Shown here piece by piece: positions 436-9,070 of a DNA stretch of 12,429 nt (position 1 is the stretch's first letter; every line of letters begins with the position of its first letter). A model generated the notes under the pieces. That model was given only the letters and a program-made list of their open reading frames with translations, had not been told where the DNA came from and made no database searches. The translations under genes and the position numbers were made by a program. Source of the stretch: Planctomycetota bacterium (GTDB lineage Bacteria > Planctomycetota > Brocadiia > JAJRTI01); contig JAJRTI010000917.1 in assembly GCA_024278415.1 (NCBI GenBank), positions 1 to 12,429 of the forward strand. Direction: 5' to 3'.

Positions 436-3357
436 CTAGTTGGCGAACGCGGCGCGGATCCCGGGCGACGTGCCTCTCTTGAACGCCTCGCCTTCGCTGT
501 GGAGCCATCCCTTGACGCTACAGTACACCTTGCGGTCGAACGCGGTCTCGGCCCAGCGGCCGTCCTTGAGTTGCACCGCGAGCGCGACGTCGCGCAGTTT
601 GTAGCAATCGCCCCCGCGGTTGCCGAAGCGGATTTCGTTGTCGAGTTTGATGAGCCCCAGCTTGTCCTTGGGGATGGGCACGAGCTTGCGGCGCCACGTG
701 TCCAGCGGCCGGCCGCTGTGGGGCACGGTGGCCACCTGCTCGCCGTTGAGCAGCAACGGCTTGTTCGCGTACTGCTTCTCGCCGTTCGCGCCGAAGATGA
801 GCACGTGCAGCATCGCGGCGCGGATGCCCTTCAGGTCGGCCTCGGTGAGCGAGATCCGGCGCCGCGCGCTGAGATCGATCTCCTTCTTCTCGCCAAGGGG
901 CGCGGCCACGCGCCGGCGCGACGCGTACGGACTCGCCAACTCGGCCACGCTCGCCGGCGCAGGGCCGGGCGCGCCGGGATAGTCGGCGAGAATCCAGCCT
1001 GAGAGCATGATATTGCTGCGGAACGGCCCATCGAGAGCGGCCGGCGACGCGCTGATGCGAAGCGTGCAACCCTGCTTCGGCAGGTCGCCGAGCAAGAGGC
1101 GCAGGCCTTCGAGCTTCACTTCGCTCGGCTTGACGCGCTCGCCATTGGCGCGAATCTCGATGCCCTTGGCCGCGTTCACGTAGTACGCCTTATCGAGCAG
1201 CAGCACGAGCCGCAGGGCCGTGAGGTCGCTGCGCCGCGGCTTCACGGTGCACGCAAGGCCTGCCGCGGCCTCAGTGCCCGCGACGATTTCGACGGCCGCG
1301 GCGGCCGGGCCGAACGCGGCGGGATCGAGGCGCGTCGTTTTCACGGCTGCGTCGGCATCGGCCCGGTAGATGCGAATCGCATTCGGCCCCAGGGCTTGCC
1401 GCACCGCGCCGTCTGGCAGCACCGCGCCGGCATCGCACTTGAAGGGGTAGATGAGTTTGAGCTTCGACGGCCGGTCGCCGACGAGGTCGCGCGCTGCGAC
1501 TTCGATCGACTGCGGTTCGATGCTGGGGTTGCGGAACCCGAAAAACGCGACGCCGTCCGCGTGCGACGCGAAGCCGTACACCTCGCCCTTGGCCGGGTCG
1601 CCTCCGAGGAGTTGCGCGGTGCGCAGCACCGGGGCCTGGTCATTGGCCCATCGGCAGGCGCGGCCGAGGATGTCCCATTGCGCGTCGGTGAGGATGGATG
1701 GAGTGATGTACAGCTCCTTCATCTGCATGCCGCGCAGGAAGTACCACACCACGTTGTCCGCCCACACGTCGAGCGGCTCGTTGCGTCCGCCGAGCATGTT
1801 GCGTTTGCCGTAGATCACGCCGTGGGTCATGGTCGCGGTCATGGGGTACTGGCAGCGCTCCTTGCGGAAGCGGCGCCAGAGGTGGTGGTCGCGATAGGTG
1901 ATGGCCCATTCGCGGCGTTCGATCGCGGGCACGGTCTTGATGAGCCCAAAGTCGCCGCAGCCCATCCAGATCGCGTCCGCGTACATGAGCCACCAGGGGC
2001 TGAGCCACATGTTGGACGTAACGTTGAGGAAGATCTCCGGGCGCAGGGTGCGCTCGTACTGGAGCAGGCCGATCTCCGCGTCCACGTTCGCCTCGAACCC
2101 GTAGCGCACCTCCGGGAGGTGGCCGTGGCCGGGCTTGCTGCAACTGAACGAGTTGAAGTCGTGCTTGAAGTAGCTGACTCGCCAGTTGAGGATCTTGTCT
2201 TTCAGCACCGCGCGGATGGCCTTGTTGTACTTCGGCCCGGCCATGCAGTAGTGGCGCTTGCTGCCGGCCTCGTAGCCTTGCTTGACGCCCCACGACACGT
2301 CGAGGTTCACGCCGGTGAGCGGCATCCACAGGCCCAGCCGCGTGCCGCCTTTTTCGAGGATGTCCGCGAGCGGCTTGTAGCCTTGGGGAAGGAAGGTGCG
2401 GTCCGGCTCCCAGATCGACTGCTTGTTCTGCCACCCGTCGTCCGGCACGAACGCGGCGAGCGTGACGCCGTAGGGCGCGAGCCGCTTGCGCATGATCTCG
2501 TACGTCCCCGCGAACCGCTCGACGGTCATCTCCCTCCGTCGCAGGTCGTACCAACTGTTGTAGAGCAGATACGACCGCGGCCGCGTGCGGATCGTGTCGA
2601 CGTATTGCATGAACGCGTCGTGCCCGCCCGCGCCGAGCACCGCGGTCTTGCTCGTCCACCCGTCCTTGCCGATGGTCTTGCCGGGGTAGTGCCGCAGCAC
2701 GACCTTGCCGTCTGCGACGATGTTGAAGCCTGCTGGGTATTCCAGGCCCAGGAAGAAGCCGTCGGCCTCCTTCTGCCGCTCGTCGGGAGGCCCGTTAGGG
2801 CCGCCCGCTGCATTGAGCCCGAGGGCGCCCTTACGGTCGCCACTACGAACGGGCCGTCGAGCCGTCGCTACAGGAGCCAGGTAGATCGGCTGCCCGCGGC
2901 CGCCGAGGTCGGTCTTCATCGTCGCGTCGATGCACTCGACGTCGATGTCGCGCAGCACAAACGGCCGGCCGGTCGCGCGTAGGTGCACGGTCTTGCGAAT
3001 CACGCGGTCGCCGGGCTTCACCTCGTAGAGGACCCGCGCGTCGATGCCGCGGCCGGCATGGACGAGCTGGATCTCGAGTCGCCGCGGTGCGCTCGTCATC
3101 TTGGCGGCTAGGAACTCATTCGCGCCCACCACCTCGCCGGCCGGCAGGTAGAGGCGGAACAACTCGGCCTGCACGCCTAGCTTCGCGTGTGTCTGAGTGT
3201 TCTCGAATGCCGCGACGCGCGCGCGGCCATCCGCGAGCACGAAGTGCAGAGTAAGAGGCCCATTGCTGATGCGGGCGGTGCGCGGGGGCTCGGCTCCCTG
3301 CACGAGGGCGCACGAGAGGAGCCACGCGATCCCAAGGCGAGCGGTGTGCGAGTTCAT
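436..3357 (-). CDS. Secreted GH36-type (clan GH-D) glycoside hydrolase
   Basis: Probably an exported alpha-galactosidase-like or raffinose-synthase-like enzyme; the substrate is unknown. The protein has 973 residues. The ATG at 3357 was chosen because GGAGGA lies 6 bases upstream and it starts a signal peptide (residues 1-22, basic then hydrophobic, ending near VQGAE); a start 18 codons upstream would bury this. Residues 25-260 look like the N-terminal beta-sandwich. The barrel carries DDGWQ (306-310), GLWMP (342-346) and YFKHDFNSF (396-404), whose Asp400 matches the GH36 nucleophile position (KWDxN). YADAIW (459-464) offers Asp461 as acid/base candidate; this assignment is by eye. Residues 580-670 look like the C-terminal beta domain, and 780-973 add a further beta-rich domain I do not recognise. 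Residues 168-179 are encoded by a dispersed hairpin repeat. No sugar transporter or regulator is adjacent. Confidence 0.8.
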   Translation of the reverse strand: MNSHTARLGIAWLLSCALVQGAEPPRTARISNGPLTLHFVLADGRARVAAFENTQTHAKLGVQAELFRLYLPAGEVVGANEFLAAKMTSAPRRLEIQLVHAGRGIDARVLYEVKPGDRVIRKTVHLRATGRPFVLRDIDVECIDATMKTDLGGRGQPIYLAPVATARRPVRSGDRKGALGLNAAGGPNGPPDERQKEADGFFLGLEYPAGFNIVADGKVVLRHYPGKTIGKDGWTSKTAVLGAGGHDAFMQYVDTIRTRPRSYLLYNSWYDLRRREMTVERFAGTYEIMRKRLAPYGVTLAAFVPDDGWQNKQSIWEPDRTFLPQGYKPLADILEKGGTRLGLWMPLTGVNLDVSWGVKQGYEAGSKRHYCMAGPKYNKAIRAVLKDKILNWRVSYFKHDFNSFSCSKPGHGHLPEVRYGFEANVDAEIGLLQYERTLRPEIFLNVTSNMWLSPWWLMYADAIWMGCGDFGLIKTVPAIERREWAITYRDHHLWRRFRKERCQYPMTATMTHGVIYGKRNMLGGRNEPLDVWADNVVWYFLRGMQMKELYITPSILTDAQWDILGRACRWANDQAPVLRTAQLLGGDPAKGEVYGFASHADGVAFFGFRNPSIEPQSIEVAARDLVGDRPSKLKLIYPFKCDAGAVLPDGAVRQALGPNAIRIYRADADAAVKTTRLDPAAFGPAAAAVEIVAGTEAAAGLACTVKPRRSDLTALRLVLLLDKAYYVNAAKGIEIRANGERVKPSEVKLEGLRLLLGDLPKQGCTLRISASPAALDGPFRSNIMLSGWILADYPGAPGPAPASVAELASPYASRRRVAAPLGEKKEIDLSARRRISLTEADLKGIRAAMLHVLIFGANGEKQYANKPLLLNGEQVATVPHSGRPLDTWRRKLVPIPKDKLGLIKLDNEIRFGNRGGDCYKLRDVALAVQLKDGRWAETAFDRKVYCSVKGWLHSEGEAFKRGTSPGIRAAFAN
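2821..2856 (-). repeat. GTAG hairpin repeat unit inside the glycosidase gene
   Basis: Read on the minus strand (the coding strand of the host gene): GTAGT, then GGCGACC-GTAA-GGGCGCC. It matches 32 of 36 bases of the intergenic copy at 344-379. It encodes residues 168-179, RPVRSGDRKGAL, and keeps the frame open. The neighbouring bases up to about 2873 contain a second, weaker CTGTAG start, so the inserted stretch may be longer, around residues 162-181. Confidence 0.75.
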
Positions 3358-3363
3358 CTGTGA

Positions 3364-3369
3364 TCCTCC
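3364..3369 (-). promoter_or_regulatory. Ribosome binding site deciding the glycosidase start
   Basis: On the minus strand this reads GGAGGA, followed by six bases and ATG at 3357. It selects this ATG over an in-frame upstream start at 3411 whose extra 18 residues (Ala/Ser-rich) would precede the signal peptide. Confidence 0.8.
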
Positions 3370-3444
3370 GAGAGGCCGCGAGGCCGAGGCTGATGCGTCC
3401 GCGCGACACACGATAGTCCAGGGTTGCCAAGCGCGCTATGGGCG

Positions 3445-3540
3445 CTCGTAGCTCGCACGTAAGTGCGTCTCTGGCCGGCGGAGCGGAACGCTCTGACGAG
3501 CGTGCTACAAACGGGGGCTCATTGACGTGAGCACTACAGG
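3445..3540. repeat. Cluster of three GTAG hairpin repeat units
   Basis: Seen: three hairpins in a row in the gap between the glycosidase start and the dehydratase stop. Unit one (plus strand, from 3448): GTAG then CGCAC-GTAA-GTGCG (3454-3467). Unit two (minus strand): GTAG then ACGCTC-GTCA-GAGCGT (3488-3503). Unit three (minus strand): GTAG then GCTCA-CGTCAA-TGAGC (3517-3532). Units one and two face each other and together form a larger imperfect inverted repeat. Stem sequences differ, pairing is kept. Confidence 0.8.
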
Positions 3541-3550
3541 CGCGCCCGCG

Positions 3551-4024
3551 TTAGACCGGCATCCCCACAATGATGGCCTCGAACGCGAGCTTTCCGTTGA
3601 CGATTCCTTGCGTCTGGAACTGGGCGCGGCGGCGCTTGAGTTCGATGTTCTTGCAGATGATGTAGAGCGTGTCGCCTGGCACGACCATGGCGCGGAACTT
3701 CACGTCTTGGAGCCCAGCGAACCCGAGGAAGACGTCGACCTGGACGACCTTGCGGTAGTAAAACGAACAGGCCTGCGCGGCCGCTTCGAGCATGATGACC
3801 CCCGGGAGCAATGGCCGGCCGGGGATGTGGCCGCGGACCCAGAACTCGTCGCCGGTGACGTCCTTGCGCGCGACCAGGTACTCGTTGTCGGGGTCGAACT
3901 CGACGATGGCGTTCAGGTGCTCCATCTCGTAGCGCTGGAGGTTCAGCTCCCGGATTGCCTCGATGTCGAAGGCCTCTTGTGTGAGATCGATCGGGTCCAG
4001 GTCGACGAGCAGTTCCTTAGCCAT
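3551..4024 (-). CDS. FabZ-like 3-hydroxyacyl-ACP dehydratase
   Basis: Likely removes water from 3-hydroxyacyl-ACP to give trans-2-enoyl-ACP in fatty acid elongation, in the cytoplasm. The 157-residue length fits single-domain hotdog-fold dehydratases. The family signature is clear: GHIPGRPLLPGV (65-76) with the catalytic His66, then MLEAAAQA (78-85) with the catalytic Glu80. The ATG at 4024 follows GGAGGA by four bases; a TTG four codons earlier overlaps that site and is less likely. The N-terminal 30 residues are longer than in typical FabZ, so a specialised FabZ/FabA-type role (for example lipid A or unusual fatty acids) is possible. No acpP, fabF or lpx genes lie nearby; its neighbours are unrelated, so it appears to stand alone. 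It points away from the next gene and likely has its own promoter in 4025-4138. Confidence 0.88.
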   Translation of the reverse strand: MAKELLVDLDPIDLTQEAFDIEAIRELNLQRYEMEHLNAIVEFDPDNEYLVARKDVTGDEFWVRGHIPGRPLLPGVIMLEAAAQACSFYYRKVVQVDVFLGFAGLQDVKFRAMVVPGDTLYIICKNIELKRRRAQFQTQGIVNGKLAFEAIIVGMPV

Positions 4025-4028
4025 GGGG

Positions 4029-4034
4029 TCCTCC
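4029..4034 (-). promoter_or_regulatory. Ribosome binding site of the FabZ-like gene
   Basis: Reads GGAGGA on the minus strand, four bases before the ATG at 4024. It overlaps the alternative in-frame TTG (4034-4036), which argues for the downstream ATG. Confidence 0.75.
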
Positions 4035-4049
4035 AAATGGGCGCTGATA

Positions 4050-4078
4050 TTGACAGGTTTCGCGCGCGGGGGTAGACT
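4050..4078 (+). promoter_or_regulatory. Possible sigma70-type promoter for the NTF2-like gene
   Basis: A perfect TTGACA (4050-4055) is followed by exactly 17 bases and TAGACT (4073-4078, four of six matches to TATAAT). A transcript would start near 4085, leaving a leader of about 54 bases before the ATG at 4139. It lies in the only divergent gap of the window. Spacing and -35 match are good, but such matches can arise by chance. Confidence 0.4.
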
Positions 4079-4138
4079 TCAGTCCAGGTGCCGCCTGGCG
4101 CGAGGCTAGGCGGCGTAGAATAGGCGACCTCGGATGGG

Positions 4139-4642
4139 ATGTCAATGGCGGTTTCTTTGCCACGACGCACGGTTTTGTTTCTCGGCCTGGGCCTGGTTGC
4201 GCTAGCGATCTGGTGGCGGTGGCCCACGGAGAGCCGGGCCGTGGCGGAGGCCATCGACCGGCTCCAAGCCGCGGCCGAAGCCGGAGATTGGGAGGCGTTC
4301 ATGCAGGGGGTGTCGCCGCGCTACAACTATGAGGGCACGACCTTCAAGGACCTGCGGGACATGGGCAAGGCCCTCACCCAAATGGTGGGCCCGTGCAGCG
4401 TGTACATCATGCGCAAGCGCATCCACGTGCAGGGATCGCTCGCATCCGTGCAGGTCGTGTTTGTCGTGTCCGCGAACGGCTCGGACGCGCGGCTGCGCGG
4501 CACGTCGAAGATGACGTGGATGATCACCTTCCGCAAAGAGAACGGCCGGTGGATGGCGTACAAAGCGCGGCCCATCGAGTTGCCGTTCTGGCGCGGCACA
4601 GTCGTCAACATCAAGGAACTTTGCGGCTACCTTGGCATCTGA
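4139..4642 (+). CDS. Membrane-anchored NTF2-like (SnoaL-type) protein
   Basis: Unknown role. The 167-residue protein has a basic N-terminus followed by one hydrophobic segment (about 11-27), which is a membrane anchor or uncleaved signal. The rest, about 34-162, has the order of an NTF2-like cone fold: two helices (AVAEAIDRLQAAAEAGDWEAF, phrase begins near 34), then beta strands such as VQVVFVVSA and KMTWMITFRKENGRWM. The ENGRWMAYKA ending is typical of the last strands of such proteins. Most of it should be outside the cytoplasm. Either ATG at 4139 or the one two codons later could start it; the G-rich GGATGGG before 4139 is a weak ribosome site. It precedes the large membrane protein by 170 bases in the same direction. 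Confidence 0.7.
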   Translation: MSMAVSLPRRTVLFLGLGLVALAIWWRWPTESRAVAEAIDRLQAAAEAGDWEAFMQGVSPRYNYEGTTFKDLRDMGKALTQMVGPCSVYIMRKRIHVQGSLASVQVVFVVSANGSDARLRGTSKMTWMITFRKENGRWMAYKARPIELPFWRGTVVNIKELCGYLGI

Positions 4643-4660
4643 TCCCCTCAGCCTGTGCTT

Positions 4661-4787
4661 GCGGCTGGCCGCGGACGTCCACGCCCGTGGCCTACAGGCG
4701 CGGACCTCCTGGTCCGCAGGGAGTCCGAAGGTTCAGGCGGACAGGACGTCCGCGGGGCATAGGTGCTGGACGTGGACGTCCAGCACC
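4661..4787. repeat. Intergenic hairpin cluster
   Basis: Seen in the gap between two plus-strand genes: an 11-base perfect inverted pair (4670-4680 with 4744-4754, CGCGGACGTCC), a nested hairpin GCGGACC-TCCT-GGTCCGC (4700-4717), and after it a perfect 11-bp stem with a TGGA loop (4762-4772 with 4777-4787). GCCTACAG at 4690-4697 resembles the GTAG end of the other repeats on the opposite strand, and also 95-102. None is followed by a T run, so intrinsic termination is not supported. Confidence 0.7.
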
Positions 4788-4812
4788 AGAGCGAGTTCGC
4801 CCGGGGTGGCCC

Positions 4813-7197
4813 ATGCCGGCTAGTGGCAAGACGGCCAAGTCCATCGCGCTCGCGAGCGTGGCGGTGGTTCTCGCGCATGGTGCCGCGTTGTTGTGGGATG
4901 CGGAGGGGGCCGGCCCGGCCGCGGCTCGCGTCCTGAGAGCGCTGACGGGGCTGCCCGTGCTCATGCTGGGCCCAGGCGCGCTGGTGGTGCTCTGTTTTGC
5001 CGGCGCCAGGCGGCTGACGGTGCTGGGCTTCTTCTCCCGAGCCTGGCTTGCGAACGCGGCCGTCCTCATCGTCGGCACGACGCTGCTGAAGCTCGCGGGC
5101 CTGACGATCAACTGCTGGGTGTTCTACGTGCTCGTGGTGGCCCTTGCCGTCGCCGCATGCGGGTGGCTGGCCGTGCGCGGCGCACGCGTCGAGATCGCGT
5201 GGCCGGGCCGCCGGTGGGCGGGCCACGTCGCCGCGGCCATGGTGCTCTGCCCGATAGCGCTCTTCGTCGCGCGGCGCCCCGTGGTCGTGGACGGCCAAAG
5301 CTACTGGCCGCTGGAGGCGAATCTGGATCTGCGCCGCGCGCTCCAGACGCGGCGCCTCCAGGATGCGCCATGCCGCGTCACGCGCGGCGCGCACTGGCGT
5401 TCTATCGGCGAGAGGCGGTTCGAGGTGGCGCAGTGGCCGGCGGCCCTGACGATCCAGTCGCCGAGCGCAGGCGCGAACAGCTACGCGCTGGTGTGGCTTG
5501 TCGAGTCGCACGTGGAGGGCGTGCTGGAGTTCACGCTCAACGGCCGGCCTCTCGCGCGGCGCTACATGCCCCCTCGCTTCATGCGCCGGCGCCACCCGCG
5601 CAACTATCCTCCGCCGAATCTCATCGTCGCGCTGGCGCTGCCGCTTCGGCCGGGGCGGAACGAACTGTCCTTGAACGTGGCCGAAAGCGGCGCCGCGGCG
5701 ACAGAACGCCGCATCGTCGTCACCGATCTGTCCGGGCTGGAAGCCCGCGCGGCGCGGCGGATCTTCGACAAGCACTACCTCTTTGCGCCCATCGGCGACG
5801 TGCAGTCGAACCTCAGCCTCGCGCGCAACTTCGAGGACCACCTCTGGCTCCACACCTACTCGTACAGCGGCCAGCGTTTTGACGGCGGCGGGCCGACCAT
5901 CAGCAACCTGCCGTTCCCGTACTGGGTGGACCAGTTTGCCCTGTTGCTCATGGGCGACTCGCCCATGAGCCTGGACGTGATGTACCTGGGGCTCGTCGCG
6001 GCGATGATCGCGATACTGCTCGCGCTTGCGGACGCGCGGGATATCCGGAGCGTGTGGCTCGCGTTTGCGGCGATGCTCTGCTACGGCATCGTGATGCGCC
6101 TCCACGTGGAGGCGCTCTACGTGCACACGGTGCTCACGTTCGCGTTCCTCCTGTGCGTGCGGCACTACTTGCGCGGCGAGCGCGGGTGGTTCCTTTTGGC
6201 CGCGGCCGCGGTGGCGCTGTGCAAGGGCGGCGTGGTGCTGCTGGGGCTGCTGTTCGTCGCCGGGGTGGTGTTCTTGCCGGAGCGGCGGCGCCGCCTCTTT
6301 GTGGACGGCGCCATCGTGACGGCCGCGTGCGCCCTGACGGTGGCTGGCTTCTGGCTCGCGCGGCGATACGTGCCCGCGCTGGAAGCCTTCGAGATCGAGG
6401 CCCGGTCCAGCGACTACGCCGGGCGCTTCAACATCATCCACTACATGTGGGACCAGCCGTGGTTCAAGAGCCGGCCGCTACGCTTGGCTGGGGGCAAGCT
6501 CTCGCTCCTGGTGCTGCTCGTGAGTTGCGGCCTGCCGTTCGAACTGTTCCGCGGCCGGGACCGCATCGCTTGGGCGCTGCTCGCGGTGGGGCTGGCGTTC
6601 CATGCGATCGTGTGCGTGTCGGACCCGACCGTCGTGAGCCGTGCGGCCATCCAGCACCCGCTCAACTACTTCACGCCGGCCGCGGTGCTGCTGTTCATCG
6701 CGGGCCTCCGCGGCATGAAGGCTGCGGGCAAGCGCGCCGGGTGGTGGCACGCGGCCGTGTGCGTGCTGTGCGTGGCGGGCTGCTCGTACTTCGCGCGCAC
6801 GCAATATCAGCCGTGGCCTGCTTCCCGGAACCGGGCCATGCACGGCGCTGCGCTCGCCGACTTCCTCGTGCGCCGGGGCATCATGCGCATTGGCCAGGGT
6901 GCGTACGAGCCGGCGCTGCGCGATGGGCAATGGGCCGCGCGCGCGTGCGAAGGCCTGGAGCCCGTGGCGGACCTCCCTACGATCCACGCGCACGCGCTTG
7001 TCGTCCAGGCCCACGCGCGGCTCATGCTGGGCCAGCGCGAGGCCGCGCTCGACCTCGCCCGGCAGGCCATGTCCATCGACGGCTCCGCGGCCAAGTCCTT
7101 GGCCGGCCTCGTGCGGCGCTTGCGCGACGACGGGCGCCCCGCGGACTCGGCCGCGCTCAGCGATCTGCTCAACACCGAACGACCGGAGACGAAGTAA
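4813..7197 (+). CDS. Large polytopic membrane protein, GT-C glycosyltransferase-like, with TPR-like tail
   Basis: Probably a lipid-linked-sugar glycosyltransferase of the GT-C fold; the substrate is unknown and the call rests on architecture. The 794-residue protein has about five N-terminal membrane segments (about 11-27, 41-62, 80-96, 100-120, 138-154). Then comes a long polar stretch (155-365) that includes a beta-rich part (LEFTLNGRPL, 238-247; GRNELSLNVAES, 281-292), likely extracytoplasmic. A GT-C-like block follows: NFEDH (339-343) with acidic residues, then NLPFPYWVDQFALLLMGDSP (365-384), which resembles the conserved pPl.yyl...G.s stretch, and some eight more segments up to 660. Residues 680-790 look like two TPR-like repeats. 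The ATG at 4813 was chosen because the open frame further upstream crosses the hairpin repeats; the ribosome site (GGGGTGG) is weak. Confidence 0.65.
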   Translation: MPASGKTAKSIALASVAVVLAHGAALLWDAEGAGPAAARVLRALTGLPVLMLGPGALVVLCFAGARRLTVLGFFSRAWLANAAVLIVGTTLLKLAGLTINCWVFYVLVVALAVAACGWLAVRGARVEIAWPGRRWAGHVAAAMVLCPIALFVARRPVVVDGQSYWPLEANLDLRRALQTRRLQDAPCRVTRGAHWRSIGERRFEVAQWPAALTIQSPSAGANSYALVWLVESHVEGVLEFTLNGRPLARRYMPPRFMRRRHPRNYPPPNLIVALALPLRPGRNELSLNVAESGAAATERRIVVTDLSGLEARAARRIFDKHYLFAPIGDVQSNLSLARNFEDHLWLHTYSYSGQRFDGGGPTISNLPFPYWVDQFALLLMGDSPMSLDVMYLGLVAAMIAILLALADARDIRSVWLAFAAMLCYGIVMRLHVEALYVHTVLTFAFLLCVRHYLRGERGWFLLAAAAVALCKGGVVLLGLLFVAGVVFLPERRRRLFVDGAIVTAACALTVAGFWLARRYVPALEAFEIEARSSDYAGRFNIIHYMWDQPWFKSRPLRLAGGKLSLLVLLVSCGLPFELFRGRDRIAWALLAVGLAFHAIVCVSDPTVVSRAAIQHPLNYFTPAAVLLFIAGLRGMKAAGKRAGWWHAAVCVLCVAGCSYFARTQYQPWPASRNRAMHGAALADFLVRRGIMRIGQGAYEPALRDGQWAARACEGLEPVADLPTIHAHALVVQAHARLMLGQREAALDLARQAMSIDGSAAKSLAGLVRRLRDDGRPADSAALSDLLNTERPETK

Positions 7198-7614
7198 TTG
7201 GCCAGAAGACGCAAGACCCACCGCGCTGGCAACGCGCACGAGGCCAAGTGCCGACGCTGCGGCCTGTGCTGCCAGGACAAGTATCTCATCGGCGACCGCA
7301 TGTTCTTTGCGGCCGAGGGCCATTGCCAGTATTTCGATCCTGAGACGAAGCTCTGCACGATCTACGAGGACCGGCACGAGATCAACCCGCAATGCCTGAG
7401 CGTGAAAGACGGCATCGCGCTCGGCGTGTTCCCCAAGGGCTGCCCGTACGTGCGAGACCTGCCCGACTACGTGCCGCCCTGCGACGAGCCCATCGACAAC
7501 GACACGCTGCGCCTCATGGAGCGCGGCCAGATCACGAACCCCCGGGACCTGGAAGCCCACCTCATCGAGAAGGCCGCACAGGCGCCCAAGCGACGCAAGC
7601 GCGGGAAGCGATAG
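7198..7614 (+). CDS. YkgJ-type Cys-cluster (zinc/iron-chelating domain) protein
   Basis: A small cytoplasmic metal-binding protein; the exact function of this family is not known. The 138-residue protein has nine Cys: C18-x2-C21-x2-C24-C25 (CRRCGLCC), then C43, C53, C66, C82 (GCPY) and C95. This CxxCGxCC opening with spaced later Cys is the signature of the YkgJ/UPF0153 zinc- or iron-chelating domain; the C-terminal part also recalls the YcgN (UPF0260) group. The C-terminus is strongly basic (APKRRKRGKR). The start is TTG, the base after the TAA of the previous gene; GGAG lies nine bases before it. No ATG occurs in frame until residue 35, after four conserved Cys. It is most likely translationally coupled to the membrane protein. 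Confidence 0.8.
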   Translation: MARRRKTHRAGNAHEAKCRRCGLCCQDKYLIGDRMFFAAEGHCQYFDPETKLCTIYEDRHEINPQCLSVKDGIALGVFPKGCPYVRDLPDYVPPCDEPIDNDTLRLMERGQITNPRDLEAHLIEKAAQAPKRRKRGKR

Positions 7615-7637
7615 CCGCGCCTTCCACGCTGTTACGC

Positions 7638-7822
7638 CAGCACGGGGCTTGTCCCCGTGCAGCGATGATTGCCGACTACTCGGCGATGGCCTCTTCTATG
7701 CATTTCCCTTCGTTTTCTGGCCGCTCGCCAAGGCGAGCGGCCAGAAAACGAAGGGAAAGAGAGGGTGTGGGCACTGCGCCGCAGTCGGCAATCATCGCGC
7801 TGCTGGGACGAGCCCAGCAGTG
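7638..7822. repeat. Nested palindromic element, MITE-like, with hairpin-bearing ends
   Basis: Seen: the ends form an inverted repeat of about 41 bases. Its inner 16 bases (7662-7677 with 7783-7798, GCGATGATTGCCGACT) match perfectly. Its outer part is a hairpin at each end: left GCACGGGG-CTTGT-CCCCGTGC (7640-7660), right CTGCTGGG-ACGAG-CCCAGCAG (7800-7820). The two end hairpins differ in stem sequence yet both pair fully. The centre is a separate 27-bp perfect stem (7703-7758). No protein is encoded. The design suggests a mobilised non-autonomous element; the enzyme that moved it is not in the window. Confidence 0.85.
7703..7758. repeat. 27-bp perfect central hairpin
   Basis: Bases 7703-7729 are the exact reverse complement of 7732-7758, separated only by AA. 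The stem begins TTTCCCTTCG and reaches CTCGCC at the loop. A 27-bp stem without a single mismatch means recent spread, homogenisation, or selection. It has no T run next to it on either strand in terminator position, so a simple terminator role is unlikely. Confidence 0.95.
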
Positions 7823-7865
7823 GCGTGAGTCGACGAAGCCGCGCCGCATCTCGCGCGGTTTGCCC

Positions 7866-7894
7866 TTGACGACGAAGGCCGCGGCGACTACGCT
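7866..7894 (+). promoter_or_regulatory. Weak candidate promoter of the zinc-ribbon gene
   Basis: TTGACG (7866-7871) lies 17 bases before TACGCT (7889-7894). The -35 matches five of six, the -10 only three of six. It is placed plausibly, about 50 bases before the ATG, and just after the palindromic element that would separate this gene from the upstream operon. Confidence 0.25.
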
Positions 7895-7945
7895 CCCTGT
7901 GTCGCCCCTGCCACCTCAAGCCACGACGTTATGAGAGGATGAGCC

Positions 7946-8887
7946 ATGCCTATCGTCTGCCCCAAGTGTGGAGCCGTGTCGCCCGACAACCAGGCCGCCT
8001 GCATCCATTGTGGCAAGAAACTGCGCAAGAGCGCCGGCATCGGCATGCTCTTCGTCTCCCTCTTCGATTGGGCCCTGCGTTGGTTCGGCCGGCTCGCCAT
8101 CGGCGTGGCCATCATCGGCGGGATCACGTGGTGGGTGTACAACCAAAACTTGCCGCAAAGCGAAGGGGGCAAGAAGAAGAAGGCTGGCGGAGCGTTCCAG
8201 GCGTTCCAATCGAAGGCCAAATCGGGCGACGCGGGAGAGGCGGCCGGCGCGGCCGGCCAGGAGGGCGCGGAGGAAGACGCCAAAGCCAAAGGCGCGGAGC
8301 CGGACGTGAAGCTCATCGAGACGTTGAAGATGCGCCTCGATCCGTCGCGCCTGCGAGAGGGGTATCAGGCCGAGGTGTACCTGCTCAACGGCGAGGCGTT
8401 CAAGGGCAAGATCTTCAAGGCCAGCGAGTACCACGTCTCGCTCGCCATAGGCAGCCAGCTCCGCGGTTTCTATCCCGACGACATTCGGCTCATTGTCCAA
8501 GGCTACCCGGTGGAGTTGGCGCAATCGGAGCGCGCCAAGTGCTTGGCCCGCCTGCGAGCGGCCTGCTTCCTCCGCCCGGCCGTGGGCGACCAGCCCAAGA
8601 AACTGTCCGTGCGCGTGAACAACGCGTCGAAGTACGCGTTCAGAGGCACAGTCACGCTGAAAGCGCCCGGCGCCGCGCCGGACGCGGAGGGCATTAAGGT
8701 GGACGTGTCCAGCGGCATTGGCGTGCCCGCGGGCAAGTTCGTCAACGTGGACATCCCGGTCGGCGACGAGGTGACCGTGCCGAAGTTCATCCCCACGTTC
8801 GAAGGGGAGTTCTGCGACACGGTCGAGGTCAAGCCGGTGGAGAAGACGGTGTTGGAGAAGGTGCCGGTGGTGGAGCAGGCGGAGTAA
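7946..8887 (+). CDS. Zinc-ribbon, single-pass membrane protein with Sm-like domain
   Basis: Function not recognised. The 313-residue protein starts with a zinc ribbon: CPKCG (Cys5, Cys8) and CIHCG (Cys19, Cys22). A hydrophobic stretch at about 32-65 gives one membrane segment. Residues 70-120 are a low-complexity linker rich in Lys, Ala, Gly and Glu. Residues about 138-178 (AEVYLLNGEAFKGKIFKASE and on to PDDIRLIV) have the strand order and G.. .KG.i pattern of an Sm-like barrel. Residues about 215-300 look like a beta sandwich (KKLSVRVNNAS, GTVTLKAP, KFVNVDIPVGDEVTV). A cytoplasmic ribbon with the rest outside the membrane, or the reverse, cannot be decided. AGAGGA six bases upstream supports the ATG. 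No partner gene is evident. Confidence 0.7.
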   Translation: MPIVCPKCGAVSPDNQAACIHCGKKLRKSAGIGMLFVSLFDWALRWFGRLAIGVAIIGGITWWVYNQNLPQSEGGKKKKAGGAFQAFQSKAKSGDAGEAAGAAGQEGAEEDAKAKGAEPDVKLIETLKMRLDPSRLREGYQAEVYLLNGEAFKGKIFKASEYHVSLAIGSQLRGFYPDDIRLIVQGYPVELAQSERAKCLARLRAACFLRPAVGDQPKKLSVRVNNASKYAFRGTVTLKAPGAAPDAEGIKVDVSSGIGVPAGKFVNVDIPVGDEVTVPKFIPTFEGEFCDTVEVKPVEKTVLEKVPVVEQAE

Positions 8888-8925
8888 GCGGCTAAGTCCA
8901 ACATTCTGCAAGCCCATGGGGGGGG

Positions 8926-9070
8926 CGCGTTTGTAGCACGCTCGTGAGAGCGTTTCTGGCCGAGCACTTGCGGAGACACGATGCGAAAGCCCGTCGAAGG
9001 CGGGATCGTCGGCCGTACGGCGGAGTCCGCAGACGCCAAGCGGAACGCACTGACGTGCGTGCTACAAACG
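8926..9070. repeat. Inverted pair of GTAG hairpin repeat units
   Basis: Left unit (plus strand): CGTTTGTAGC then ACGCTC-GTGA-GAGCGT (8938-8953) and TTCTGGCCG. Right unit (minus strand): CGTTTGTAGC then ACGCAC-GTCA-GTGCGT (9045-9060) and TCCGC. They face each other across 77 bases that I do not recognise. Both match units at 3448-3513 with the stem pair swapped between C-T-C/G-A-G and C-A-C/G-T-G. The pair fills most of the gap between two plus-strand genes. Confidence 0.8.

Follow-up and report, generated by a model that had tools for sequence, protein, structure and literature searches.

We analysed a DNA stretch of 12,429 bases (the window) that, judged from homologues of its FabZ-like protein, is a contig from an uncultured planctomycete. 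It carries seven short hairpins, each preceded by a GTAG tag, which a first-pass annotation had read as one repeat family and compared with REP/RAYT systems. In our analysis they are most probably repetitive extragenic palindromes (REPs) of the GTAG superfamily, moved as single-stranded DNA by a REP-associated tyrosine transposase (RAYT). They fall into two families: A, with a 6 bp stem and a GTNA loop, and B, with a 7 bp stem that contains one mismatch. Among the readings weighed here this one is best supported, by the tag, the short stem and loop, the head-to-head dimers, the sites past stop codons, an in-frame insert, and RAYT genes bracketed by GTAG hairpins in related Planctomycetota. It is only partly supported because the units form two families and the covariation comes from five sequences.

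The family A units are named here by the outer base of their GTAG: 3448+, 3508-, 3537-, 8933+, and 9065-. On the plus strand lie GTAG-C-TCGCAC-GTAA-GTGCGT (3448-3468), with a T.T pair at its foot, and GTAG-C-ACGCTC-GTGA-GAGCGT (8933-8953). On the minus strand are GTAG-C-ACGCTC-GTCA-GAGCGT (3488-3508), GTAG-C-ACGCAC-GTCA-GTGCGT (9045-9065), and a unit with a different stem, GTAG-T-GCTCAC-GTCA-ATGAGC (3517-3537), with C.A next to the loop. If one mispair is tolerated, the plan GTAG-N-6-GTNA-6, written after the units had been seen, matches these five places and no other in the window, and 300 dinucleotide shuffles gave no match. Likewise, a strict pattern derived from the units themselves recovers four of the five at up to three mismatches, against 0.01 expected. 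More generally, a hairpin of at least five pairs follows eight of the 70 GTAG sites (mean 1.24 and maximum 4 in 100 shuffles), although three of these eight (1366, 2101, and 6096) are outside family A. Among the 256 tetramers, GTAG comes only 11th in hairpin rate, after rarer words and words overlapping the same units.

The stems of family A differ between copies while pairing is kept. In the gap-free alignment of the five sequences, 28 of the 30 cells are paired, compared with 10-70% in slid controls; the T.T and C.A pairs just mentioned are the two mispairs. Both sides have changed in three of the six pairs, two pairs are invariant, and one departs only by a mispair. Column shuffles matched the observed values of five measures 3, 12, 2, 61, and 2 times in 500, a sample of five sequences being too few for an R-scape-type test. 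Only the third loop base varies: three loops read GTCA, one GTAA, and one GTGA.

Both family B units, found by repeat comparison and in the sequence, are on the minus strand. GTAG-T-GGCGACC-ATTA-GGGCGCC (347-369) lies 67 bp past the end of the minus-strand gene 436-3411, which encodes an alpha-galactosidase-like protein, and GTAG-T-GGCGACC-GTAA-GGGCGCC (2824-2846) lies inside this gene. Their stem, GGCGACC/GGGCGCC, includes an A.G mismatch. The copies are 89% identical across 36 nt and differ in the loop and the flank, with an identical stem, and family B is therefore without covariation. A covariance model of family A gives its own five units 29.8-34.8 bits and the B units 7.3 and 12.9, the best unrelated stretch reaching 13.1. 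Because of the A.G mismatch, the ATTA loop, and the failure of the model to recover the B units, the seven units are two families built on one common plan. GTAG-superfamily REPs are short palindromes of about 20-40 bp with an unpaired GTAG at one end. The GTAG tag is present in 5/5 family A and 2/2 family B units, and it is replaced by GTCG in a probable partner at 2782.

The single family of seven units proposed by the first-pass annotation thus holds for five of them (3448, 3508, 3537, 8933, and 9065), which are as described, whereas those it placed at 344 and 2821 make up the second family. Complementary stem changes, a mark of the GTAG superfamily, are likewise present in family A, within its small sample, and not seen in the two B units. 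The GTNA tetraloop applies to every family A unit and is broken by the ATTA of one family B loop.

Head-to-head dimers and an in-frame insert

Four of the five family A units form two dimers of opposite orientation, as is typical of the GTAG superfamily, with their GTAG tags outward. One is 61 bp long (3448-3508). The other, of 133 bp (8933-9065), has a longer spacer and begins 46 bp after the stop at 8887; it folds as a single long hairpin (z -3.49, 0/200 shuffles as stable). Alignment of the two reveals common inner ends: TCTGGCCG follows the plus unit, and AGCGGAA precedes the minus unit. Each dimer therefore looks like one composite, REPIN-like element, and the units probably move as head-to-head dimers. 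The minus-strand unit 3517-3537 stands alone, between dimer 3448-3508 and the fabZ stop at 3551. The three intergenic groups of units start 14, 46, and 67 bp past a gene end. Two of them lie between codirectional genes and the third is bordered on its other side by the window edge.

The product of gene 436-3411 has 973 residues in the homologue table, where a few homologues are named alpha-galactosidase by their sources and most are unnamed or hypothetical. Protein alignment delimits, to within 2 nt, an in-frame insert of 111 nt (37 aa) at 2767-2877 on the minus strand. The 37-residue segment sits between GQPIYL and ADGFF and is missing from 8/8 closest homologues. In the full set of 102 homologues, 89 span the site, none of which carries the segment, and 13 do not span it. 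The aligner had shifted the gap in nine of the 89, for which the printed strings show the flanking motifs abutting or a few residues apart. Besides the B unit 2824-2846, the insert holds a facing plus-strand hairpin read from the sequence, GTCG-G-GAGGCCC-GTTA-GGGCCGC (2782-2804), with an A.G stem mismatch. This hairpin is the probable degenerate head-to-head partner of the B unit. Another GTAG, at 2868-2871, is 6 nt away from the upstream end of the insert as drawn, or 4-6 nt given the ambiguity of that end. Three placements of the insert are possible; one of them begins with T after C and would fit a C|T cut, but to prefer it is a matter of choice. Beyond a possible 2 nt, no target duplication is seen, as far as a single insert with ends from proteins only, within 2 nt, can tell. 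The mobility of REPs by RAYTs is still largely inferred, and this gene offers a clean footprint of one insertion, with both ends known to within 2 nt, that appears to be new.

RAYT genes and GTAG hairpins in Planctomycetota

RAYT genes scoring over the curated cut-off of NF047646 were found in 131 of 392 Planctomycetota genomes and in 1 of 14 control genomes. Matches at E up to 0.001 occur in 263/392 but also in 6/14 controls and are therefore not specific; since only 131 genomes exceed the cut-off, 131/392 is the prevalence that bears weight. By this count, the sampled Planctomycetota appear RAYT-rich.

GTAG hairpins flank some of the RAYT matches. We inspected 30 RAYT matches in six genomes, either kin (G001 and G009) or picked for their B-like matches (G323, G172, G260, and G290). 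Eleven of the 30 are bracketed within 500 bp, with a GTAG hairpin ahead of the gene and an inverted one behind it, two of the bracketed matches (L157 and L163) being one place. Nine of the 30 exceed the cut-off, five of them bracketed. Among 16 control tags, 15 bracket none or one of the 30 loci, and TAGG brackets five. In a phylum sample of the 28 best new RAYT loci, GTAG brackets four, TAGG four, and the other 15 control tags none. The TAGG counts (5/30 and 4/28) equal the numbers of GTAG pairs in which G follows the tag. Two of 30 loci found with the broader PF01797 are GTAG-bracketed. Across 110 loci (80 gene-neighbourhood and 30 transposase loci; ten of the genomes behind the 80 were searched), hairpins of at least six pairs start at 119 of 4907 GTAG sites, compared with 314 of 37060 for five permuted tags.

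One group of such hairpins forms a GTAG-N-7-TTNA-7 family, with 34 matches in genome G172 (32 tagged) and 23 in G323 (22 tagged), against none for the reversed control. The 32 tagged copies of G172 are dispersed, and one pair brackets a RAYT over the cut-off. From the 57 matches, three rows lacking a GTAG or GTCG tag were dropped (two being the other strand of listed units) and identical sequences were merged, leaving 19 distinct tagged sequences (alignment A4). These show two-sided changes in three of seven pairs, and 95.5% of their cells pair, compared with 20-60% in slid controls. The alignment is limited by the 3-mismatch search, and one of its covarying pairs was a choice in the search pattern. 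The loops are TTTA, TTCA, and TTGA.

Other neighbours of GTAG hairpins were considered as RAYTs. The proteins at loci L108 and L089 score above the RAYT cut-off and those at L098 and L090 below it, and the protein beside the hairpins of L084 was rejected as an IS200-type transposase. Locus L162 (G001:C100, 1085-1983) has four head-to-head GTAG hairpin pairs around a RAYT match, with two alternating stems; three pairs are in regular tandem and one partner has a mismatch. In the 2.0 Mb genome G009, RAYT matches at different places (L135, L143, L148, L153, and L157) are accompanied by GTAG hairpins of four or more distinct families. In L046, a 13.9-kb planctomycete locus, 17 GTAG hairpins are listed, many of them perfect palindromes that are tagged on both strands and so counted twice.

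Proposed single-stranded transfer and rival explanations

The proposed transfer would begin when a strand becomes single, for instance during replication. A RAYT (TnpA-REP, an HUH tyrosine transposase) whose gene lies elsewhere in the genome would then bind GTAG and the hairpin and cleave next to the tag, at a CT-like site. The cut element would be inserted at another site, with no duplication of the target. Corneloup et al. (2021; PMC8266576) describe TnpA-REP enzymes that cleave single-stranded REPs next to the hairpin, at CT and, in the case of the Marinomonas enzyme, at CA as well. The short-stem Marinomonas REP is described there as needing loop bases 1, 2, and 4, with base 3 free, while GTAG acts in the choice of cut (PMC8266576). 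The anatomy of the units, the dimers, pairing maintained through two-sided changes, and an insert that homologues lack are observed in the window; we infer that a RAYT is the mover of the units, that positions 1, 2, and 4 of their loop are recognised while 3 is free, and that single-stranded DNA, not RNA, is the selected form. With similar proportions and the same free third base as the Marinomonas REP, but G at position 1, family A would be served by a RAYT with another loop preference. A broader loop code is a tentative and rather doubtful extension: in Planctomycetota and Marinomonas alike, RAYTs of short-stem REPs would recognise the loop by its bases 1, 2, and 4, base 3 being ignored; families would diverge by a change of position 1 from T to G together with the enzyme; and the GTNA hairpins of the window would mark a lineage of RAYTs whose loop specificity is new, the 111-nt insert being its product. 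Loop variation gives a testable guess at what the enzyme reads.

It is unlikely that the hairpins are instead kept as RNA elements, acting in mRNA 3' end protection, attenuation, or termination, with DNA mobility incidental or absent. The short distances of the intergenic groups from gene ends would suit such roles. As RNA, GTAA and GTGA would form GNRA loops, but the commonest loop, GTCA, is not GNRA. The units also occur in both orientations and as dimers, with one pair within a coding region, and an Rfam scan of the window gave no family at gathering score. A terminator scan listed 10 sites, compared with 7.6 in shuffles, and named no unit; we accordingly rejected the units as rho-independent terminators, defined by a hairpin followed by a T run.

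Two explanations by DNA of another kind seem less probable still. The units might be ends or remnants of some other small inverted-repeat element, such as a miniature inverted-repeat transposable element of a DDE transposase, and the window does contain further inverted-repeat elements (13-156 and 7634-7826). However, what is repeated is a hairpin tagged on one strand, whose stem sequence differs between copies with pairing kept, and the insert shows no target duplication beyond the possible 2 nt. Local duplication or slippage, with a B unit inside the 111-nt segment by chance, would be compatible with another B unit lying so close past the end of the same host gene and with insert ends known exactly from protein alignment only. 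Yet the 36 nt shared by the two copies consist of the unit and its tag flank only, and the segment is missing from every homologue spanning the site.

Several results weigh against REPs moved by a RAYT. None of the eight main reading frames in the window encodes a RAYT, and the word "repetitive" is based on five copies of one family and two of the other within 12.4 kb. In the collections searched, no convincing copy of either family turned up elsewhere. The exact family A pattern had no match in the genome contigs or in the viral contigs; at up to two mismatches it had none in 58 kin genomes or 75 genomes of the class (overlapping sets), and six in the 392 genomes of the phylum, which are attributable to chance because the reversed control gave 18. 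Family B, with up to three mismatches, gave 18 matches in 16 of the 392 genomes, against more than 25 for its control. Folding is also equivocal, since dimer 3448-3508 is not clearly beyond shuffles (z -1.47, 16/200 as stable) and the single-stranded insert segment folds no better than shuffles (35/200 as stable). The 30 RAYT loci come partly from genomes chosen for B-like hairpins, and the cut-off is not reached by 21 of these matches. A bracketing GTAG pair within 500 bp is missing from 19/30 and 24/28 RAYT loci and from 28/30 PF01797 loci. Finally, in the Marinomonas assay, G at loop position 1 greatly reduces cleavage (PMC8266576). A GTNA loop would therefore need a differently tuned enzyme.

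Other searches gave similar results. The exact family B pattern had no match in viral contigs, and descent of family B from the G323 type is not claimed, its matches in the phylum being fewer than in the control. A covariance model, which the first-pass annotation had suggested as a check on all seven units and which was built here from the five of family A, passes over those at 344 and 2821. In a search of 75 genomes, made with strict filters and limited to 109 candidates in the richer genomes, it returned two single, non-significant matches (E 0.31 and 0.39). L191 reads ATAG-C-GCCCAT-GTCA-ATGGGC on the matched strand, and in L192 a GTCA-looped stem follows GTAG, a family resemblance expected of any model match.

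One further gene of the window points to a planctomycete host. The FabZ-like protein (3551-4036, minus strand) has homologues named by their sources as Planctomycetes, Scalindua, Brocadia, and others among the best 120 of 1680 matches, 21 of which form its alignment (A1), and its top species-genome match has 66% identity. A Pfam scan of the eight main reading frames gave matches above the cut-off for FabZ, a CxxCxxCC protein, and an isochorismatase-like protein, and no family over the cut-off for the alpha-galactosidase-like protein and four others. Three further regions contain palindromes. At 13-156, 27-nt arms, 96% complementary, are 90 nt apart, each arm being itself a CCTGGGGC/GCCCCAGG palindrome. 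Between two genes, 4650-4790 holds several more palindromes with GGACGTCC-like cores, read by eye, including one minus-strand GTAG that precedes CCACG-GG-CGTGG. The intergenic segment 7634-7826 is a nested inverted repeat, with 44-nt arms (77%) that enclose a perfect 27-nt inverted repeat (7703-7758) whose own arms are 2 nt apart, and it looks like a composite small mobile element.

Comparison with known REP systems

In kind, the window hairpins are already known. Di Nocera et al. (2013; PMC3733652) define GTAG REPs by a one-sided GTAG tag, a 5-13 bp stem, and a short loop, and record them in Planctomycetes. They describe 24 families, sub-families with complementary stem changes, and head-to-head dimers mostly 20-100 bp apart. 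GTAG REPs lie downstream of genes and between codirectional genes, and some are intragenic; over half of the intragenic ones are dimers or groups coding for 20-30 residues, and some clusters code for 43-82 (PMC3733652). The window units agree with this description in their tag, short stem and loop, stem sub-families, dimers, gene-downstream sites, and intragenic copy. The comparison with the 24 published families is one of descriptions and not of consensus sequences, and it is within this limit that families A and B, without matches in the searches made here, appear to be new.

Family A most resembles the Group 3 REPtron Mb of Marinomonas sp. MWYL1, as presented by Corneloup et al. (2021; PMC8266576). 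Both have GTAG, one or two unpaired bases, a 5-6 bp stem, and a four-base loop with a free third base, but the family A loop is GTNA and not TTNA, and the stem sequence is different. Family B shares with the GTAG-N-7-TTNA-7 family of G172 and G323 the order GTAG, one base, 7 bp, four-base loop, and 7 bp. Its free third loop base and its two-sided stem changes are likewise shared with the window units, those of family A, and one pair of it brackets a RAYT; a TTNA loop and a perfect stem set it apart. In Pseudomonas, REPINs reportedly consist of two REPs placed head to head, which would be the mobile unit. The window dimers differ from them in phylum, sequence, and spacer but have the same head-to-head layout.

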